Origin: Desulfosarcina alkanivorans
Lineage (GTDB): Bacteria; Desulfobacterota; Desulfobacteria; Desulfobacterales; Desulfosarcinaceae
NCBI RefSeq assembly: GCF_009688945.1
Contig: NZ_AP021874.1
Location: forward strand, 4,092,001-4,156,000
Direction: 5' to 3'
DNA: 64,000 bases
Shown here in pieces: positions 18,451 to 39,796 of the stretch. The notes beneath the pieces are model-generated. The model did not search any database. It was not told the origin of the DNA and saw nothing but the letters and a program-made list of their open reading frames with translations. Made by a program: the position numbers and the translations under genes. Numbering within the stretch: position 1 is the stretch's first letter; the number at the start of each line of letters is the position of its first letter.

Positions 18451-19605
18451 TCAGGGCGTCTTTCCAGTGAGTATTGGGTCAAGATCCACATTTTCCGGCC
18501 AGTTTTTCGGAAAAGATTGTCCGGGCGCTTCCCCCCGGTGCGCTTTTTTTTCCGCAAGGCCTTTACGTTTGTATTCTTCCCTTGGTTGTTTGGGGATTCT
18601 CCCGTTCAAAATGGACTCGGATCTCAGACGCCTGCCAATCGTTTTTTCCCATTTATTGCCAAGAGCCAAAACCCGTTCTATATCTATACCAGTCTCCACC
18701 TTCATTTCATCCATCATGACTAGCATGTCTTCTAGGCTGACAAGTCCGACGATATTCGGATCTCGGTAATAGTATTCCCCTGTTCCTCTGACGGGCACAC
18801 CATCCAGGAAATTGGCGGGTTGTCCGCCGATGCCACCCATGACGCCTTCGTGGATCTCCACACCAGCAGCCATGGCGGCCAGGACATTGGCCAGCCCCCA
18901 ACCCCGTGTGACGTGAAAGTGGGCTACGTGCAGGTCGCGGTTGGGAATCTCATCCAGAACCATGGAAAAATATCGGTAGACTTGATCCGGCGGAGCTGAT
19001 CCGTCGTGGTCGGCGTGTTCGATGTCGTCGGCGCCGATACTAAGCCAGCGTTTGGTGAACTCCAGAGCGTCTTCGAAACGCGTGGGACCTGAAATCGGAC
19101 TGCCCCAGATCGTGCTTACTGTTCCGAAAACCCGAATGCCGACATCATGGCACTTTTCAATGCAACGGCTGGCTTCTTGCCAGTATTCCGGTAGAGTCGT
19201 ACCGGAATTGGCATAATGATGCTCTTCATCTGTGGACACCATCATTCCGATCCGATCCGGTCCCCAACCTTCCTTTCGACCGGCTATGGCCCGATCCACA
19301 CCGGTTTCCCTGATAGCTACACCTGTCAGTTCAATATCGTCGAAATTAATTCCTTTTCTCGACAGTCGCCGGCTGTCGCGGACCCGTTTGAACAATTCTT
19401 CAGCATCCCTGAACTGAGGCAAAAAAGCTGGGTTAGCGAAATTGGTAATCTCGAGCCGCTTGAATCCAGCCAGTATAGCTTCTTCAACATAAAATACTTT
19501 TGCCTCAGTAGGGATAAAATGCTCCTCATGCTGCAGCCCTTCTCGAATGGAAATATCGCCGACACGAACTGTTTTAGGGTAGCTCAGTTCAAATGGATTG
19601 CTCAT
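18451..19605 (-). CDS. HMG-CoA-lyase-like DRE-TIM metallolyase, copy A
   Basis: TIM-barrel pyruvate-carboxyltransferase/HMGL family protein, 384 residues. A strong site GGAGG lies 6 bases before ATG 19605. Metal and catalytic elements visible are GDISIREGLQ at 16-25 and the HFH pair in LHVAHFHVTRGWGLAN. Two changes set it apart from true HMG-CoA lyases: the RDGLQ motif is REGLQ, and the catalytic-cysine loop GGCP is GGQP (GGIGGQPANFLDG). Cleavage of HMG-CoA is therefore not assured; a related aldol-type lyase or condensation is possible. Its neighbours (carboxyltransferase, crotonase) otherwise fit a leucine-type pathway. It is nearly identical to copy B (37613-38761) except for the last 25 or so residues. 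Confidence 0.8.
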   Translation of the reverse strand: MSNPFELSYPKTVRVGDISIREGLQHEEHFIPTEAKVFYVEEAILAGFKRLEITNFANPAFLPQFRDAEELFKRVRDSRRLSRKGINFDDIELTGVAIRETGVDRAIAGRKEGWGPDRIGMMVSTDEEHHYANSGTTLPEYWQEASRCIEKCHDVGIRVFGTVSTIWGSPISGPTRFEDALEFTKRWLSIGADDIEHADHDGSAPPDQVYRYFSMVLDEIPNRDLHVAHFHVTRGWGLANVLAAMAAGVEIHEGVMGGIGGQPANFLDGVPVRGTGEYYYRDPNIVGLVSLEDMLVMMDEMKVETGIDIERVLALGNKWEKTIGRRLRSESILNGRIPKQPREEYKRKGLAEKKAHRGEAPGQSFPKNWPENVDLDPILTGKTP

Positions 19606-19675
19606 TCAGTTCCTCCTTTTCGATTCCTTGTTTGGCAATTGATGTATCCTAACGCCAACAGCTATTTCCCAGTGA
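18513..19675. repeat. Near-identical 1.16 kb direct repeat, copy A
   Basis: This stretch matches 37669-38831 with only about two single-base differences that I can see (in the CTTGGTTGTT and TTGGCGGGTT contexts). It covers most of the lyase gene, its ribosome site and the short gap upstream. The match ends abruptly on the left inside the 3' end of the gene, where the tails remain similar but diverged, and on the right at the sequence CCAGTGA (19669-19675). Confidence 0.92.
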
Positions 19676-20459
19676 AAACAGGCTTGCGTTTTTCTGCAAA
19701 GGCATCCAGTGCTTCCAGCCTGTCCTGGGTTGGGATGGTAATTTCATATGCTTTGGATTCAAGAGGCAGGGCAACACCGAGGCTGCACTGCGAACCATAG
19801 TTCAGTGCGAATTTAGCTTGCTGGACCGCCACCGGGCCGTTATCTGCAATCTCCTTTGCAAGGGCCTGCGCGGCTTTCATCAGTTTATCGGATTCAGCTA
19901 CCTGGTTGACCAAACCAATCTCCAATGCAGTGCGAGCGTCTATTCTCCGGGCGGTATAGATCAGTTCTTTTGCCTTGGCCAAACCAACGATCCTGGGCAA
20001 TCGCTGGGTGCCGCCACCGCCTGGGATAATGGCCAGACGGGTTTCGGTTAACCCCATCATGGCATCTGCAGCGGCAATTCTCAGATCACACGCAAGGGCA
20101 AGTTCAGAGCCACCGCCGAATGCATACCCATTTATTGCGGCGATCACCGGTACCCGGGCGTTCTCAACTGCTGCCATAGTGCCGCGAACCGTAGTGATAA
20201 AGCGCCGCACCTGATCATCGCTAAAACTGCGTCTTTCTTTGAGGTCTGCTCCGGCTGAAAACGATGCTTTTTTGCCTGCAAGTGGCGGGGCACCAGTTAT
20301 TATTATTACCCTTATAGACAAATCGAAATTACTTTCCTCGACGACCTGCTTGAGCGTAGTAATCATCTCCATGTTCATGCAATTCATAGCACCGGGACGG
20401 TTCATAGTCAGAATAAGCATCCCATTCGATTTCATTTCTTGTAATATGGTATCGGACAT
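19662..20459 (-). CDS. Enoyl-CoA hydratase (methylglutaconyl-CoA hydratase-like)
   Basis: Crotonase hydrating a 2-enoyl-CoA, 265 residues. Both catalytic acids are present: Glu119 in GGGSELALACDLR and Glu139 in GLTETRLAIIPGGGGTQRLP. The oxyanion segment is FSAGADLKERR. This pattern is close to AUH/methylglutaconyl-CoA hydratases. AGGAG lies 8 bases before ATG 20459. It is placed between a carboxyltransferase and an HMGL-like lyase, the order expected for 3-methylcrotonyl-CoA or related branched-acid breakdown. Exact substrate is inference. Confidence 0.88.
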   Translation of the reverse strand: MSDTILQEMKSNGMLILTMNRPGAMNCMNMEMITTLKQVVEESNFDLSIRVIIITGAPPLAGKKASFSAGADLKERRSFSDDQVRRFITTVRGTMAAVENARVPVIAAINGYAFGGGSELALACDLRIAAADAMMGLTETRLAIIPGGGGTQRLPRIVGLAKAKELIYTARRIDARTALEIGLVNQVAESDKLMKAAQALAKEIADNGPVAVQQAKFALNYGSQCSLGVALPLESKAYEITIPTQDRLEALDAFAEKRKPVFTGK

Positions 20460-20474: not shown

Positions 20475-22094
20475 TTAAAATTTAAAATTTCCGAAACTCG
20501 ATTGTTGGATTGGTTTCAGCAACGAAACTTCAAAAGCCGTTGCCAGTGCATCCCTGCACATGTTGAGTGGTAAAGTGCCGTCATGGTACATGCGAGCTTC
20601 AGTGTAAAAGGGGTGTGCCTCACGAGAGTATTTATCAATCATTTCTTGCTCAAATTTCTGGAACTCTTTCTCATCTTTATTCTGACCACGTTTTTTAGTA
20701 TTGGCTCGCTCAAGAGTAGTTAAAATGTGACCTGCCGTTCTACCTGACATCACCGAGGTGCGCCCACGCATGGTATTGAATATAAAATTGGGATCATAAG
20801 CGCGGCCGCACATCCCGTAGTTGGCAGCCCCGTGGTCTGGCCCGATGACCCATTGAATTTTTGGAACATTGGCGCAAGCCCCAGCCCTGACCATATTGGA
20901 GCCGTATTTACCGATGCCGGCATACTCTTCTTCAGTACCCACCATGTATCCCGGAGAATTCTGAATATAAAGGATTGGTAATTTTTGAGTGCAGCAACGA
21001 ACGATCCATTCGGCAGCCTTGCGAGCAGATTCGACAAAGATAACTCCTATGCTGTTACTGGCAACGACTCCTATGCTCAGACCTTTGAGACGTATTTTAC
21101 CGCAAACGATATTATCACCCCGACCGGGGCAATAATTGCGTTTATATTCGCTGAACGCCGAATCATCAGCGATTGCTGCTATTACCTGCCTGACGTCAAT
21201 ACTTCGGTAAGGATCTGAGGGAAGTACTTTGTACAAGTGGTCATCAGGTACCCGGGGCAGGCGCTCAGGCTGGCGGTCTGCATATATTTTTTGAGGGGGG
21301 TCATGTGATAAAAGCTCACGAAGCTTTTCAATCCCTTCGTCTTGTGAGGTAACAAAATGATCGGCGCCACCTGAAATACTAGTGTGTATTTTTGCGCCGC
21401 CTAAGTCTTGCATAGTTACTTCTTCCCCGATTGCGGATTTGACCATTGGAGGCCCGCCAAGGAATGAATAGGCCAGCTTATCAATCATGATGGATTCGCA
21501 TGCAAGGTATACCGTATAGGCGCCGCCGGCAGTGTTGCCTCCTGTGCTTAAGGTATATTGTTTTAGGCCCTTGGCGGACATCCGGCTCATGTTGTAAAAA
21601 AACCGTCCGAACTGGTCACGGCCGGGAAATACGCGGTCTTGCATAGGCAAGAATCCACCCGCCGAGTCACCGATATAAATAGTGGGAATACCGCATCGAT
21701 CGGCAATATCCTGAGCCCGCAGATGCTTTTTACAATTGATGGGGTAATATGCACCGGCCTTGACACGGCTGTCATTGGCAATGATCATTGCCCAGTTACC
21801 GTGAATCTTACCAAGTCCGGTCGCTAAACCGGCCGAAGGGACATCTTTAGTGGTTTCATAGTCAAGGCCGAATCCGGCACCCCGGCTTAGCTCAAAAAAA
21901 TCTGTTCCAGTGTCGATTAGCTGTTGGATTAACTCACGCACAGGTTTTTTCCCCTGATGTTTAAGTCTCTCGATCTGCTTTTGACCGCCAGGGTTGTATG
22001 CTTTGTCCCAAAGGGCATGAATTTGCTTTTCTTCATTTTTCCAGTGAGCACGGTTGTTTTCAGTAATCTGTGCCTTTTTTAGGTCATCGGTCAT
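20475..22094 (-). CDS. Acyl-CoA carboxylase, carboxyltransferase (beta) subunit
   Basis: Transfers CO2 from carboxybiotin to an acyl-CoA, probably 3-methylcrotonyl-CoA or a related 3-methyl-enoyl-CoA. ATG 22094 is chosen because GGAGG stands 8 bases upstream; ATG 22109 precedes that site. The protein has 539 residues with two crotonase-like halves. N half: GDSAGGFLPMQDRVFPGRDQ and STGGNTAGGAYTVYLACE. C half: NSPGYMVGTEEEYAGIGKYG and SGRTAGHILT. It is downstream of the TetR/Com-like pair, with a terminator between, so it probably has its own promoter or depends on read-through. The biotin carrier is at 18105. A short relic of its 5' end lies at 38832-38879. Confidence 0.9.
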   Translation of the reverse strand: MTDDLKKAQITENNRAHWKNEEKQIHALWDKAYNPGGQKQIERLKHQGKKPVRELIQQLIDTGTDFFELSRGAGFGLDYETTKDVPSAGLATGLGKIHGNWAMIIANDSRVKAGAYYPINCKKHLRAQDIADRCGIPTIYIGDSAGGFLPMQDRVFPGRDQFGRFFYNMSRMSAKGLKQYTLSTGGNTAGGAYTVYLACESIMIDKLAYSFLGGPPMVKSAIGEEVTMQDLGGAKIHTSISGGADHFVTSQDEGIEKLRELLSHDPPQKIYADRQPERLPRVPDDHLYKVLPSDPYRSIDVRQVIAAIADDSAFSEYKRNYCPGRGDNIVCGKIRLKGLSIGVVASNSIGVIFVESARKAAEWIVRCCTQKLPILYIQNSPGYMVGTEEEYAGIGKYGSNMVRAGACANVPKIQWVIGPDHGAANYGMCGRAYDPNFIFNTMRGRTSVMSGRTAGHILTTLERANTKKRGQNKDEKEFQKFEQEMIDKYSREAHPFYTEARMYHDGTLPLNMCRDALATAFEVSLLKPIQQSSFGNFKF

Positions 22095-22167
22095 GATTGA
22101 ATCCTCCATAGTTTGTTCGGGGGTTCATTTGCCTCTCTTTTCGCGACTTTGTCTCACGCCGGTTATA

Positions 22168-22211
22168 ATAAAAAAAGCCGATTGCGAGGATATATTTTCC
22201 TCGAACCGGCT
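22168..22211 (-). terminator. Rho-independent terminator after the Com-like gene, copy A (degenerate)
   Basis: Leftward hairpin 22176-22211 followed by a T-tract (the A-run 22171-22176 on the given strand). The left arm AGCCGATTGCGAGGA is intact, but the right arm has lost pairing bases compared with copy B, where the 15-base stem is perfect. Termination may be leaky here, which would let the regulator transcript reach the carboxyltransferase gene. Confidence 0.75.
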
Positions 22212-22282
22212 ATCTTCGTAGCTCTGAGTAAACGTGGCGCTCTATGACGCTCGAATTATGCGTGCCTTCAGGCTTTTCAGGT

Positions 22283-22450
22283 TTATTTATGAATGGTAAT
22301 AATTTTTTTACATTTAGGGCAACGAGTTTCTATTTCTACCACATTACCACGCATCAAAAGCCTGTTACAAACAGGACAACGGTATTCCTTCTTATCACAT
22401 GTTTTCAGGTCATTTTTCACCTCAGCAGTATCCGATTTTGATTTTATCAT
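22283..22450 (-). CDS. Com-like zinc-ribbon small protein, copy A
   Basis: A 55-residue protein with two CxxC knuckles: YRCPVCNRLLMRGNVVEI (Cys25, Cys28) and TRCPKCKKIITIHK (Cys44, Cys47). Spacing and the central LLxxG are typical of the Mu-like Com family (RNA/DNA-binding zinc ribbon). Mu Com activates translation of mom mRNA; here there is no prophage or mom-like gene. It starts 39 bases after the double-TetR gene stop on the same strand and is followed by a terminator, so the two form an operon. There is no strong ribosome site. Copy B (39067-39234) differs by three silent changes and one Lys-to-Asn at the last residue, which supports selection on the protein. Confidence 0.85.
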   Translation of the reverse strand: MIKSKSDTAEVKNDLKTCDKKEYRCPVCNRLLMRGNVVEIETRCPKCKKIITIHK

Positions 22451-22489
22451 GATTTTTTAGGGCTGTCTTTTTACGCCAGCGGCCTCTTT

Positions 22490-23644
22490 TCATGAATTTT
22501 CTTTTAGTGCATCGATAAATAGGCTAGCAATTTCGTTTCTAACCTTTATAAGGTCGTAGTTCCGTTTAAAAATAATCCAAGGAATTAATATATGATCTAT
22601 TGATCCAAAAAGTAACGCCCGGCAAACGGTTGGTCTGAGTTCACTTATAAACACCCCGCTGTTTTGGCCATCCCGGATTATCCCTTGAATAATTGAGAAA
22701 ATTTTTTCCAAAATTTTGTTACTTTCTGAATAGTAGAATTTCTTATTTGGACGCAACATCAGCACCAATATTCTTGAATAATCATGATCTTCATTGTAAA
22801 AGTTGAATAAAGAATAGATCATTTTTCTGAGTTCGATTTCTGGCGAATTTCCGCTAAGTTCGTCCAGCAATTGACCTAATTTTTCCTCCGGGATATTAAT
22901 CAGTAAATTTTCTTTATTTTGATAATAATCGTAAATAGTCCCTTCTGATACGCCAGCTTGACGAGCGATTTCCATTACATTGGTATCTTTATACCCATAG
23001 CTTGCAAACAGTTTACTGGCGCAACAAATGATCTGTCGACGTTTCCGTTCCTTTTTGTTCGCGGGAGAAATAATGGTCTTTTTTCTTGTGATTGCATTGT
23101 TTATCAAATCAAACAGATGTTCAGCTACCTCAAGGGGACTGGTACCATTTTTCAAGGTCCAGTTTATTGCAACATGATCAACGGTACCAAGGATCATATC
23201 GCGTACGATGCGAGGTGGAATTGATTTACGAAAACTACCCTCGGCGACGCCTTGTTCAATGATAGTGGTAAAAATACCACTATACTGCTTTAATTTTTTA
23301 TAGGCGCTGGACTTGTAAAATTCTGGATAAGATCGCGACTCGAGGATAATCTGAATTTCCTTGCGACTGGCCGAATAAAACTTGCAGTGACACCAAACTG
23401 CCTTGCGAAGTTTGTTGATCGCACCAAGAATTCCCTCAAGGTGGTCTTTTATCCCCTCTATGCTTTCAATGAGAAACTCTTCAATAATTGCAAAAAGTAT
23501 CTCTTCTTTACTATTAAAACATGTATAAATTCCAGAGGGGGCAATTTGTGCTTCTTTTGCGATCTCAGAAATCGTTGCACCCTCGAACCCTTTCTCAGCC
23601 AAAACCCTTGTGGCTGAAGCAAGAACTATAGCTCGTTTGCTCAC
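22490..23644 (-). CDS. Tandem (double) TetR/AcrR family regulator
   Basis: A 384-residue protein made of two complete TetR units joined in one chain. Unit 1 (about 1-185) has a helix-turn-helix at 23-43 (ISEIAKEAQIAPSGIYTCF) and a ligand domain ending GTVDHVAINW. Unit 2 (about 198-384) has a second helix-turn-helix at 221-241 (VMEIARQAGVSEGTIYDYY) and a ligand domain with the parallel GSIDHILIPW. Normal TetR proteins have about 200 residues and dimerise; this one could form a covalent pseudo-dimer. The start is GTG 23644 with TAAGG 5 bases upstream. Its promoter carries palindromes fitting auto-repression. It probably senses an acyl-CoA from block A (inference). Confidence 0.9.
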   Translation of the reverse strand: MSKRAIVLASATRVLAEKGFEGATISEIAKEAQIAPSGIYTCFNSKEEILFAIIEEFLIESIEGIKDHLEGILGAINKLRKAVWCHCKFYSASRKEIQIILESRSYPEFYKSSAYKKLKQYSGIFTTIIEQGVAEGSFRKSIPPRIVRDMILGTVDHVAINWTLKNGTSPLEVAEHLFDLINNAITRKKTIISPANKKERKRRQIICCASKLFASYGYKDTNVMEIARQAGVSEGTIYDYYQNKENLLINIPEEKLGQLLDELSGNSPEIELRKMIYSLFNFYNEDHDYSRILVLMLRPNKKFYYSESNKILEKIFSIIQGIIRDGQNSGVFISELRPTVCRALLFGSIDHILIPWIIFKRNYDLIKVRNEIASLFIDALKENS

Positions 23645-23670
23645 TATGGCCTTACCCCATAACTATGAAT

Positions 23671-23732
23671 ATTGATCAATGTAAATTTAGAAATGATTTG
23701 TATTCATATTAACTTGACCTATCTTTGTCAAG
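23671..23732 (-). promoter_or_regulatory. Promoter and operator candidates for the double-TetR/Com-like operon
   Basis: On the leftward strand, -35 TTGACA (23726-23731) and -10 TATGAA (23703-23708) are separated by 17 bases. A palindrome CTTGAC-N8-GTCAAG (23713-23732) overlaps the -35 box, and ATTGATCAAT (23671-23680) lies just after the expected start of transcription. Both are plausible self-operator sites. The promoter is conserved in copy B. Confidence 0.7.
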
Positions 23733-23871: not shown

Positions 23872-24735
23872 TTAAGCAGCAAGAGGGAATGTTTCGTATT
23901 CTTGAGGCGTTGCATAATCAGGCACAGAGTGACGCCTTTTTCGGTTGTAGAAGATTTCGATATAGTAAAACAGGCTGGTGGTCGCTTATGAGCGGCTGAG
24001 GTACCGGTGATGATTCACCCATTCGGTTTTCAGCAGATGGAAGAAGCTCTCCGCAACCGCGTTATCATAACAGCTGCCCTTGCGGCTCATGCCGCAGGTC
24101 ATCATATTTTTAGTGAGCATTTTCTGGTAATCACCGGCGGCATACTGGCTGCCCCGGTCTGAGTGATGCATCAATCCCGATGCGGGGCTTTTAAGGTCCA
24201 GCGCCATCTGTAGCGCATCGATGGATAGTTGACGGGTCATCCGAGAAGAGGCAGATCAGCCGACAACCTTGCGGTTGAACAAGTCGATTACCACAGCCAG
24301 ATACAACCACCCTTCCTGGATATGGATGTAGGTGATATCACCGACTCAGGTTCGGTCCGGAGCGTCCACGGTAAACTCCTGGCTCAACAGGTTGGGTGCC
24401 ACCGGCAGGTTATGCCGGGAGTTGGTGGTCGCTTTGAATTTCTTTTGGGTACGAGTCCGGATACCGGCTTCACGCATAATCCGGGCAACGCGGTTTTGGC
24501 CGCAACGGATGCCCTCATCGGTAAGATCCCGGTGAATTTTCGGTGATCCGCAGATTCCGTGACTGGCGATATGGAGGACGCGTATTTTGTCCTCTAAGGC
24601 TCGGTTTTCAATTCTTCGAGGGCTCTCCGGTCATGTCAGCCAGGCGTAAAACCCAGAGGGGGAGACATTAAGCAACGCGCACATACGGCCTACCTTGAAC
24701 GCCTCCCGGTGATCAGCAATGAATTGGAATTTCAT
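23872..24735 (-). pseudogene. IS3-family transposase OrfB with four in-frame stops
   Basis: One continuous frame of 288 codons from ATG 24735 to TAA 23872, interrupted at codons 35 (TGA, 24631-24633), 130 (TGA, 24346-24348), 160 (TGA, 24256-24258) and 250 (TAA, 23986-23988). The DDE triad is otherwise recognisable: GDITYIHIQEGW, HHSDRGSQYAAGDYQ and NAVAESFFHLLKTEW. Two of the TGA codons replace conserved tryptophans (DRT-W-VGDIT and VVG-W-S), consistent with TGG to TGA changes. The frame length is undisturbed, so decay was by point mutation. Confidence 0.9.
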
Positions 24736-25031
24736 TTCTGATCCTCCGCAAAGTAGGCCAGCGCTTTTTTTAAGATATCGCGCTCTTCTTTTACCCGCTC
24801 CAGTTCTTTTTTAGAGTGCGAAGCTCCTGGTCGCCAGGCTTTTGCCGACCTTTGCCGGGAAAGGCGTTTTGAGGATCATCCGCCAACTGTTGCTTCCAGC
24901 GGCGCAGGACACTGTATTCAATGCCCAAATTTCTGGATGCTTCGGCAATGCTGTATCCCTTTTCTGTGATCAGCGCCACGGCTTCCTTTTTAAATTCCCG
25001 GCTGTAGCTCTTTCGTTTCTTCTTTGACCAT
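24732..25031 (-). pseudogene. IS3-family OrfA with two compensating frameshifts
   Basis: Helix-turn-helix protein of the IS3 element. ATG 25031 follows an excellent AAGGAGGT site, and the stop TGA 24732-24734 overlaps the orfB start in the same frame. The conserved middle (KSYSREFKKEAVALITEKGY, then RRWKQQLADD) is in another frame. One extra base near the start and one missing base in the A-run before KKELERVKEERDIL would restore a 99-residue protein. The A-run could also resemble a programmed slip site, but it lies in the zipper region, so mutation is more likely. Confidence 0.75.
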
Positions 25032-25110
25032 TGAACACCTCCTTCTGCCCATATACCTTGGGCTCTTCGAGGTGTCCACCAAATCGGGTAAAATGCATTA
25101 TAACGCAGGA

Positions 25111-25887
25111 TCATTTTTGATTTCCCTCGTATAAGGGCATATTGTCGATCAGCCTAACTCCGCCGCAGTGAATCGCCGCGCAACGGCGGCCTTTAAAATC
25201 CTGGACATAGTCAACCTCAAACCCATCGGCTTCTAGCAAACGGGCCACCTCCTCGGCCGGCGCTTGAGCAGCCAATATTTTCGGAAACCTGGCCGCCTTC
25301 TCACGATGCCTTTTAGACAGGTGGAGATTGCGCGAACTTATGGCCAGGCGGTCTATATCGCGAACCGTGGGACAACCAACAATGATCAAGGGCATGAAAA
25401 AAGCTTCCACCATGCCTTTGACCAACTGGAGTTGCTGCCAGTCCTTCTCACCGAAATAAGCCCGTTGCGGTCGGACTAGGTTCAATAACTTCATGACCAC
25501 GCTAAGCACTCCATCAAAATGACCGGGGCGGTGGGTGCCACACAACAGCGGGCTGACTTCGTTTTCGGAAACGCGATAACGATAATCGTCAGGATATAGT
25601 TCGCTGTAGTCGGGGAAGAAAATTGCATCCACCCCTTCAGCTTCACACAGTTTCCGGTCCGCTTCAAAGGTGTTCGGATAGTTGGCCAGATCATTCTCAT
25701 CATTGAATTGGGTGGGGTTAACGAACAGACTGATGGTACAAATATCATTGTCCTGTCGACAGCGGGTGATTAATGACTGGTGTCCCGCATGAAGCGCCCC
25801 CATGGTAGGCACCAGCCCCACATTTTGTGTTGAAGGAATCACGTTGCGCCAGTTCTGCCAGGAGCTGATACTGGTAAAGATCTCCAT
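25111..25887 (-). CDS. panC: Pantothenate synthetase
   Basis: Joins pantoate and beta-alanine with ATP to make pantothenate, the CoA precursor; cytoplasmic. The protein has 258 residues, slightly under the usual 280. VPTMGALHAGHQSLI carries the HIGH-type ATP motif, and LFVNPTQFN, FGEKDWQQLQLV and the KMSKS-equivalent region PTVRDIDRLAISSRN follow. The last is somewhat altered from the usual PTVREPDGLAMSSRN. The C-terminus VRLIDNMPL is intact, so the IS3 element 22 bases downstream did not truncate it. No panB or panD is adjacent. Confidence 0.93.
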   Translation of the reverse strand: MEIFTSISSWQNWRNVIPSTQNVGLVPTMGALHAGHQSLITRCRQDNDICTISLFVNPTQFNDENDLANYPNTFEADRKLCEAEGVDAIFFPDYSELYPDDYRYRVSENEVSPLLCGTHRPGHFDGVLSVVMKLLNLVRPQRAYFGEKDWQQLQLVKGMVEAFFMPLIIVGCPTVRDIDRLAISSRNLHLSKRHREKAARFPKILAAQAPAEEVARLLEADGFEVDYVQDFKGRRCAAIHCGGVRLIDNMPLYEGNQK

Positions 25888-37612: not shown

Positions 37613-38761
37613 CTAAAGGCCGGTAATGGATGTACTCAACTCACATATTTCCGGCCAATCTAAAGGAAAACATTGTCCGGGCGCTTCCCCCCGGTGCGCT
37701 TTTTTTTCCGCAAGGCCTTTACGTTTGTATTCTTCCCTTGGCTGTTTGGGGATTCTCCCGTTCAAAATGGACTCGGATCTCAGACGCCTGCCAATCGTTT
37801 TTTCCCATTTATTGCCAAGAGCCAAAACCCGTTCTATATCTATACCAGTCTCCACCTTCATTTCATCCATCATGACTAGCATGTCTTCTAGGCTGACAAG
37901 TCCGACGATATTCGGATCTCGGTAATAGTATTCCCCTGTTCCTCTGACGGGCACACCATCCAGGAAATTGGCAGGTTGTCCGCCGATGCCACCCATGACG
38001 CCTTCGTGGATCTCCACACCAGCAGCCATGGCGGCCAGGACATTGGCCAGCCCCCAACCCCGTGTGACGTGAAAGTGGGCTACGTGCAGGTCGCGGTTGG
38101 GAATCTCATCCAGAACCATGGAAAAATATCGGTAGACTTGATCCGGCGGAGCTGATCCGTCGTGGTCGGCGTGTTCGATGTCGTCGGCGCCGATACTAAG
38201 CCAGCGTTTGGTGAACTCCAGAGCGTCTTCGAAACGCGTGGGACCTGAAATCGGACTGCCCCAGATCGTGCTTACTGTTCCGAAAACCCGAATGCCGACA
38301 TCATGGCACTTTTCAATGCAACGGCTGGCTTCTTGCCAGTATTCCGGTAGAGTCGTACCGGAATTGGCATAATGATGCTCTTCATCTGTGGACACCATCA
38401 TTCCGATCCGATCCGGTCCCCAACCTTCCTTTCGACCGGCTATGGCCCGATCCACACCGGTTTCCCTGATAGCTACACCTGTCAGTTCAATATCGTCGAA
38501 ATTAATTCCTTTTCTCGACAGTCGCCGGCTGTCGCGGACCCGTTTGAACAATTCTTCAGCATCCCTGAACTGAGGCAAAAAAGCTGGGTTAGCGAAATTG
38601 GTAATCTCGAGCCGCTTGAATCCAGCCAGTATAGCTTCTTCAACATAAAATACTTTTGCCTCAGTAGGGATAAAATGCTCCTCATGCTGCAGCCCTTCTC
38701 GAATGGAAATATCGCCGACACGAACTGTTTTAGGGTAGCTCAGTTCAAATGGATTGCTCAT
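37613..38761 (-). CDS. HMG-CoA-lyase-like DRE-TIM metallolyase, copy B
   Basis: Same enzyme as 18451-19605: residues 1 to about 357 (through GEAPGQ) are identical by eye, including the altered REGLQ and GGQP motifs that replace RDGLQ and the catalytic-cysteine GGCP. Only the C-terminal tail differs (CFPLDWPEICELSTSITGL against SFPKNWPENVDLDPILTGK), and these tails are still alignable. The shared ribosome site GGAGG lies 6 bases before ATG 38761. It is followed by the isovaleryl-CoA-dehydrogenase-like gene. Total 382 residues. Function as in copy A; a role in a leucine-type route remains inference because of the changed residues. Confidence 0.8.
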   Translation of the reverse strand: MSNPFELSYPKTVRVGDISIREGLQHEEHFIPTEAKVFYVEEAILAGFKRLEITNFANPAFLPQFRDAEELFKRVRDSRRLSRKGINFDDIELTGVAIRETGVDRAIAGRKEGWGPDRIGMMVSTDEEHHYANSGTTLPEYWQEASRCIEKCHDVGIRVFGTVSTIWGSPISGPTRFEDALEFTKRWLSIGADDIEHADHDGSAPPDQVYRYFSMVLDEIPNRDLHVAHFHVTRGWGLANVLAAMAAGVEIHEGVMGGIGGQPANFLDGVPVRGTGEYYYRDPNIVGLVSLEDMLVMMDEMKVETGIDIERVLALGNKWEKTIGRRLRSESILNGRIPKQPREEYKRKGLAEKKAHRGEAPGQCFPLDWPEICELSTSITGL

Positions 38762-38831
38762 TCAGTTCCTCCTTTTCGATTCCTTGTTTGGCAATTGATG
38801 TATCCTAACGCCAACAGCTATTTCCCAGTAA
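37669..38831. repeat. Near-identical 1.16 kb direct repeat, copy B
   Basis: Matches 18513-19675 almost base for base. At the right end it changes at CCAGTAA (38825-38831) straight into a diverged copy of 22048 onwards, so about 2.37 kb present in block A is missing here. To the right of this point identity with block A is visibly lower, and small deletions appear. Confidence 0.92.
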
Positions 38832-38879
38832 ACACGGTTGTTTTCTGCAATCTGTGCCTTTTTTGGGATCATCGGTCAC
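38832..38879 (-). pseudogene. Relic of the carboxyltransferase 5' end
   Basis: About 16 codons matching the start of the 20475-22094 carboxyltransferase. The start codon is now GTG (38877-38879), and one added base early in the frame shifts the reading. The GGAGG ribosome site is still visible upstream. The rest of the gene and the adjacent crotonase are absent, removed by a deletion between CCAGTGA repeats. Confidence 0.8.
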
Positions 38880-38952: not shown

Positions 38953-38995
38953 ATAAAAAAAGCCGATTGCGAGGATATACTCCTCGCAATCGGCT
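38953..38995 (-). terminator. Rho-independent terminator after the Com-like gene, copy B
   Basis: Perfect 15-base stem: AGCCGATTGCGAGGA (38961-38975) and its reverse complement (38981-38995) with a 5-base loop, followed leftward by a T-run (A-run 38955-38961 on the given strand). It would end the regulator/Com-like transcript before the lyase gene. Confidence 0.9.
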
Positions 38996-39066
38996 ATCTT
39001 CGTAGCTCTGAGCAAACGTGGCGCTCTATGACGCTCGAATTATGCGTACCTTCAGGCTTTTCAGGC

Positions 39067-39234
39067 TTAATTATGAATGGTAATTATTTTTTTACATTTA
39101 GGGCAACGAGTTTCTATTTCTACCACATTACCACGCATCAAAAGCCTGTTACAAACAGGACAACGGTATTCCTTTTTATCACATGTTTTCAGGTCATTTT
39201 TCACCTCAGCGGTATCCGATTTTGATTTTATCAT
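39067..39234 (-). CDS. Com-like zinc-ribbon small protein, copy B
   Basis: A 55-residue twin of the 22283-22450 protein with the same two CxxC knuckles (YRCPVCN and TRCPKCK). Compared with copy A there are three silent changes (codons 8, 21 and 50) and one amino-acid change at the final residue (Lys to Asn). Start, length and stop are kept. The upstream double-TetR gene is dead here, yet the promoter and the downstream terminator are preserved. This suggests that the Com-like protein alone is being maintained and may act by itself, perhaps as an RNA- or DNA-binding factor for nearby mRNAs (inference). Confidence 0.82.
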   Translation of the reverse strand: MIKSKSDTAEVKNDLKTCDKKEYRCPVCNRLLMRGNVVEIETRCPKCKKIITIHN

Positions 39235-39273: not shown

Positions 39274-39738
39274 TCATGAATTTTCTTTTAGTGCATTGAT
39301 TGATAGGCTATAAATTTCGTTTCCAACCTTAATAAGGTCGTAGTTCAGTTCATTGCTACATGATCAACGGTGCCAAGGATCCTATCGCGTAAGATGCGAG
39401 GTGGAATTGTAAAATTATGGTTAAGATCGCGACTCGAGGATAATCTGGATCTCCTTGCGACTGGCTGAAAGAAACTTGCAATGGCACCAAACTGCCTTGC
39501 AAAGCTTGTTGATCGCAACAAGAATTCCCTCAAGGGGATCTTCTACCCCCTCTATGCTTTCCATGAGAAACGCTTCAATAATTGCTAAAAGGATCTCTTC
39601 TTTACTATTAAAACATGTATAAATTTCAGAGGGGGCAATTTGTGCTTTTATTGCAATCTCAGAAATTGTTGCACCCTCGAACCCTTTTTCATCCAGCCCC
39701 CTTGGGGTTGACGCAAGAATTAAAGCTTACTTGCCCGC
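39274..39738 (-). pseudogene. Degraded copy of the double-TetR regulator
   Basis: Aligns with 22490-23644 in block A. The GTG start is now GCG (39736-39738), and codon 4 is a TAA. The first helix-turn-helix region is still readable (ISEIAIKAQIAPSEIYTCF), with Gly changed to Glu. Two deletions are visible: about 600 bases corresponding to roughly residues 162-361, which removes the whole second TetR unit, and about 93 bases near residues 110-141. The end of the gene and the gap to the Com-like gene remain. It cannot make a functional regulator. Confidence 0.9.
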
Positions 39739-39796
39739 TATGGCCTTATCTCACAGGTATGAATATCGATCAATGAAAATTAAGAAATGATTTTTA

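Follow-up and report, generated by a model that had tools for sequence, protein, structure and literature searches.

A phage-type com cassette flanked by a tandem TetR gene and an acyl-CoA operon: a candidate antitermination switch

In RAT/LicT-BglG antitermination, an RNA-binding protein recognizes a hairpin, and this target and the 5' side of an intrinsic terminator overlap. The com-mom module of phage Mu is a system of translational activation in which a small zinc-finger protein, Com, binds an RNA hairpin that has a C-G closing pair and, in a six-residue loop, a two-part core made up of GAG(N)2CC and CC(N)2-3GAG (PMC6483171). Com genes are also found beside non-phage genes: in Pseudomonas they adjoin bacteriocin, glycosyl hydrolase and levansucrase genes (PMC6240691, PMC3899960), and the role of com genes outside phages has been posed as an open question (PMC6240691). 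A search of mainly open-access literature found nothing on com together with TetR, and the term 'tandem TetR' gave unrelated papers only.

Here we describe a com gene in a 64,000-nt stretch of Desulfosarcina alkanivorans DNA (the window), where it lies between a tandem TetR gene and a set of catabolic genes (Table 1). The original prediction described a tandem TetR gene followed after 39 nt by a 55-residue protein with two CxxC motifs and then by a terminator. All of this was confirmed: the gap between tetR and com is 39 nt, the Com cysteines follow the pattern CxxC-x15-CxxC, and a terminator is present, which was absent from the listing of a generic terminator scan. A second com copy, and the two Com-type hairpins that follow each com copy, had escaped the first reading. 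The carboxyltransferase gene probably starts at its second ATG (22094), which has GGAGG ahead of it.

Table 1. Features of the two com loci and the downstream genes, in window positions.
Feature	Position	Strand	Remarks
Tandem (covalent double) TetR regulator, 384 aa	22490..23644	(-)	two TetR_N and two TetR C-terminal domains
Com-family zinc ribbon, 55 aa	22283..22450	(-)	PF10122 above cut-off
Com hairpin 1, GA[GCGU]C-AUA-GA[GCGC]C	22236..22252	(-)	fits SELEX bipartite motif of PMC6483171
Com hairpin 2, GA[GCUA]C-GAA-GA[UAGC]C	22208..22224	(-)	fits Com target form
Intrinsic terminator	22170..22211	(-)	14-bp stem, one bulge, then T7; 5' foot 22208-22211 common to hairpin 2
Acyl-CoA carboxyltransferase, first gene past terminator	20475..22109	(-)	PF01039
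Enoyl-CoA hydratase	19662..20459	(-)	PF00378
HMG-CoA-lyase-like enzyme	18451..19605	(-)	PF00682
Broken remains of second TetR	39275..39740	(-)	pieces of 113 and 21 residues alone align, 78-81% identical
Second com copy	39067..39234	(-)	54/55 residues identical
Com hairpin 1, second copy	39020..39036	(-)	
Com hairpin 2, second copy	38992..39008	(-)	
Terminator of second copy	38955..38995	(-)	perfect 15-bp stem

Membership of the small protein in the Com family, as originally proposed, is well supported by sequence comparison. It scored 24.5 bits against the Zn_ribbon_Com profile PF10122, a small margin over the curated cut-off of 22.9, and the PHROG com families matched it at about 1e-6. The same profile was matched by 22/22 aligned Com homologues, in which C25, C28, L31, L32, G35, C44, P45 and C47 are invariant, i.e., the four zinc cysteines and an LL..G core. 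Residues 21-55 were modeled as a beta zinc ribbon (pLDDT about 90), and the chain ends 8 residues past the last cysteine, with no C-terminal disordered tail of the Mu type. Foldseek comparison of the model with the PDB gave nothing significant, the best match being the ZitP zinc finger (E 0.6). In the domain search, zinc-ribbon families alone matched and no BglG/LicT-type RNA-binding domain was found. RNA binding by the window Com is presumed. PF10122 has only two matches in the 7.32-Mb genome, both inside the window. Close relatives of the window Com were absent from phage records, and one weak match was found on an E. coli plasmid, which also has a Com site. Genomes of family f35 (L051-L074) encode up to seven small zinc-ribbon proteins each, of the type YxCPHCxxFLxKGNVxxLxMxCxHCQK; having neither Com hairpins nor TetR, these apparent relatives were set aside.

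The tandem TetR gene begins with GTG, and the two halves of its product are 29% identical (E 6e-22, half-versus-half alignment). The FadR equivalog model NF053878 of NCBIfam gave 222.8 versus 200 bits, a score summed over the two tandem units; the structure model was moderate (pLDDT 77) and played no part in the argument. Orthologues are present in at least 11 other genomes of the sampled sets. More distant tandem-TetR genes (L089-L106) are common in the same order, near acyl-CoA and related genes, so the covalent double TetR itself is not rare there. A FadR-type operator upstream of TetR was dropped, as a single FadR-like half-match was found in the window only and none was common to the orthologues, and a frame of 23 codons that overlaps the TetR stop in the window (ATGA) was set aside since it was not found in G230. 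An IS3-family-like transposase remnant (23986-25114) separates the TetR promoter region from a pantoate ligase gene (25111-25887), the end of which meets the insertion.

Both hairpins behind com fit the form GA-[N4]-C-N2..4-GA-[N4']-C, with a U-G closing pair in hairpin 1, and the mom leader fragment quoted in PMC6483171 fits it too. The window holds exactly two such hairpin pairs, one behind each com, and two single sites lie scattered over the opposite strand; shuffled windows had a mean of 1.1 single sites and 0 pairs within 40 nt in 100 shuffles. In the whole 7.3-Mb genome, GAGCTA-N2..8-GATAGCC occurs at two places only, both after com. Rfam gave no match on the com strand of the region and one chance match on the opposite strand (14.8 bits versus 70). 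As predicted Com targets, the hairpins are well supported, and because canonical Com hairpins adjoin the com gene, there is strong support for control at the RNA level. Hairpin 2 and the terminator are mutually exclusive, since AGCC is common to hairpin 2 and the foot of the terminator stem.

The original prediction saw a two-level switch in the pairing of a TetR repressor with a possible RNA-binding activator. The Com hairpins back its RNA level, but the overlap with the terminator points to attenuation and not to a copied Mu translational switch. Attenuation is the simplest reading. TetR would repress the tetR-com transcript until a ligand, presumably of the acyl-CoA type as in the family, frees it. 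The transcript would carry com, the two Com-target hairpins and the terminator overlapping the second hairpin. Without Com, the terminator would form and the transcript would end behind com; the Com protein that this transcript encodes would bind the hairpins and hold UAGC in hairpin 2, which would open the base of the terminator stem beside the U-tract, and polymerase would continue into the carboxyltransferase, hydratase and lyase genes. TetR would then govern initiation and Com the passage through the terminator. We give an even chance to this overall reading, in which a cassette of phage ancestry between the tandem TetR gene and the acyl-CoA operon forms a second, RNA-level gate through antitermination by Com; antitermination is deduced from the anatomy of the locus, and ligand control is presumed from the TetR family. 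Several findings count against antitermination. Compared with the terminator, hairpin 2 on its own is less favorable by 6-10 kcal/mol, a cost that Com would have to pay, and when hairpin 2 is forced, the upper part of the terminator stem forms all the same. The hairpin 2 stems show no covariation of their own because GCUA/UAGC is invariant. We know of no earlier case of a Com-family protein controlling transcription termination, or of host catabolism governed by a phage RNA switch that is itself under a TetR repressor; if the proposed reading is true, this locus would be the first of either kind known to us.

The target rule was applied to viral contigs that had no role in its derivation. The finger pattern missed 30/80 viral loci, which were left out, and 48 distinct com loci were scored. 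A site was present within 300 nt after the finger in 36 of these 48, in most cases at +18 and with a further site often at +40, compared with 0 sites in the same viral stretches reversed and 9 in the remaining 115 kb on the same strand. When viral frames were taken without requiring complementarity, 48/58 were fully paired versus 14.9 expected from shuffles. An alignment of 21 sequences had double changes in all four stem pairs (covariation 0.69 versus 0.27 in shuffles); some of its rows were picked by complementarity, so the pairing test is the cleaner one. This gives a general com-target rule for phages, simple, searchable and with strong covariation across viral com loci, and by being searchable it makes the question on non-phage com (PMC6240691) directly testable. 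In most viral com loci (L113-L192), the com tail contains, or is closely followed by, one or two Com hairpins. The viral hairpins close just before the start codon of the next gene, a T-run follows the sites in only 1/34 loci, and the genes behind them include DNA-methyltransferase-like and Mom-like frames, as judged by eye from motifs.

Sharing both the Com family and the target sites with phage loci, where the sites directly precede the next start codon, the window could be read in the Mu manner: Com would bind the hairpins on read-through mRNA and promote translation of the carboxyltransferase, the terminator being merely leaky. We consider this unlikely, since in the window, unlike in the phage loci, a strong terminator and a distance of about 100 nt or more separate the hairpins from the start codon. 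The position that defines the Mu type, a hairpin directly before the next ribosome site, is thus not occupied here. Most likely, Com was recruited from translational activation, as in com-mom, to antitermination under TetR control.

The order com, hairpin(s), overlapping terminator and acyl-CoA gene was found in five genomes (six chromosomal loci, drawn from sampled genome sets, so that counts are not frequencies). In G000, G230, G727 and G137, which represent four families of one order, the orthologous tandem TetR directly precedes com; the recurring TetR neighbourhood looked for in the original prediction is therefore real. Acyl-CoA or biotin-carboxylase-type genes come next in these four. 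The G230 locus is the same as L006, from a groundwater Deltaproteobacteria MAG, and in G137 the TetR stop and the com start overlap as ATGA. The fifth genome, G697 (of the family of G727), has the same com and RNA element ahead of an acyl-CoA dehydrogenase gene; its contig extends 1.2 kb upstream of com and has no TetR there. Com is optional, being absent from 8/12 orthologous tandem-TetR operons found. Operons with and without com are sisters in the TetR tree (G000/G021, G727/G755), whose well-supported branches require com to have been gained or lost three times or more, so com, hairpins and terminator behave as an optional cassette. The six chromosomal loci may descend from one spreading cassette, and their counts are therefore not independent.

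Aligned downstream of com, the loci have GAGCGYC-N3-GAGCGCC and then GAGCUAY-N2..4-GAUAGCC running into the terminator. G137 is without hairpin 1, which counts against the model. Every operon with com carries hairpin(s) and terminator, in 7/7 modules (two of them in tandem in G137) 4-5 bases belong to both hairpin 2 and the terminator foot, and no hairpin was found between TetR and the first catabolic gene in the orthologous operons lacking com. A covariance model built from the chromosomal elements, the E-values of which are rough, retrieved an additional com gene from G169, where its surroundings are prophage-like. At this locus, L196 (G169:C499), hairpin 1 is accompanied by another hairpin, GAGCTTTTGCAAAAGCC, which overlaps a terminator; the locus may link phage com with the chromosomal cassette. 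Matches of the RNA model in G234 and G229 were taken as look-alikes, with no com in the stretch read.

The spacing behind the terminator bears on a further explanation, that Com binds only the 3' end of its own mRNA, for autogenous control or 3'-end protection, and that the catabolic operon has its own promoter. The strong terminator (-23 and -32 kcal/mol) closing the tetR-com unit would suit this, as would the 60-75 nt from terminator to carboxyltransferase gene in the window, which could hold a promoter and so also count against antitermination. In G727, however, the next gene begins at most 39 nt beyond the U-tract, which leaves little space for another promoter, and no terminator was noticed between TetR and the catabolic genes in sister operons lacking com, a rough negative in that the scan also missed the G230 and G727 terminators. 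Slightly less credit is due to this explanation than to Mu-like translational control.

The window also carries a partial duplicate of the cluster, in which com and the RNA element are intact and TetR is reduced to fragments. The second com copy differs from the first by four base changes, three of them silent. Identity between the copies is 95-98% over the stretch of about 300 bp with com, and the flanks of the matches are mostly at 72-95%. Over the HMGL-like gene, a 1.08-kb stretch (18546-19626; copy within 37642-38850) is nearly 100% identical; with the clusters otherwise differing by 2-28%, this looks like recent gene conversion. That com and its RNA element are remnants of a phage fragment once inserted here and no longer have any role is improbable: the optional com, the broken TetR beside the second copy and a stop in P. 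syringae com that left levansucrase unchanged (PMC3899960) would agree with it, but among Com proteins only 45-57% identical, finger, hairpin sequences and terminator overlap have been retained despite divergence of the intervening DNA, and 3/4 changes between the window copies are silent.

Putative antitermination by Com under TetR control shares parts with four described systems. With phage Mu com-mom it has in common a PF10122 zinc-finger protein and a target hairpin of the form GA-stem-C-N2..3-GA-stem-C just downstream of com, with the next gene controlled. In contrast to Mu, the hairpins belong to the 3'UTR, where what follows them is a terminator overlapping hairpin 2 instead of a ribosome site; Com is tailless, and a host TetR gene stands upstream and catabolic genes downstream. 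Uptake of com beside non-phage genes is already known from Pseudomonas, but neither a TetR gene nor a terminator element is described at those loci (PMC6240691, PMC3899960). The domain types TetR_C_4 and TetR_C_24 and the catabolic neighbourhood recall the TetR/FadR (YsiA) fatty-acid regulators, whereas the window protein is two TetR units in one chain, with the Com cassette in addition. Unlike the proteins of RAT/LicT-BglG antitermination, to which it is unrelated, Com has no PTS-regulated domain, and control would be exerted through the level of Com and TetR; as in those systems, a protein-binding hairpin, with binding putative here, and a terminator are mutually exclusive.
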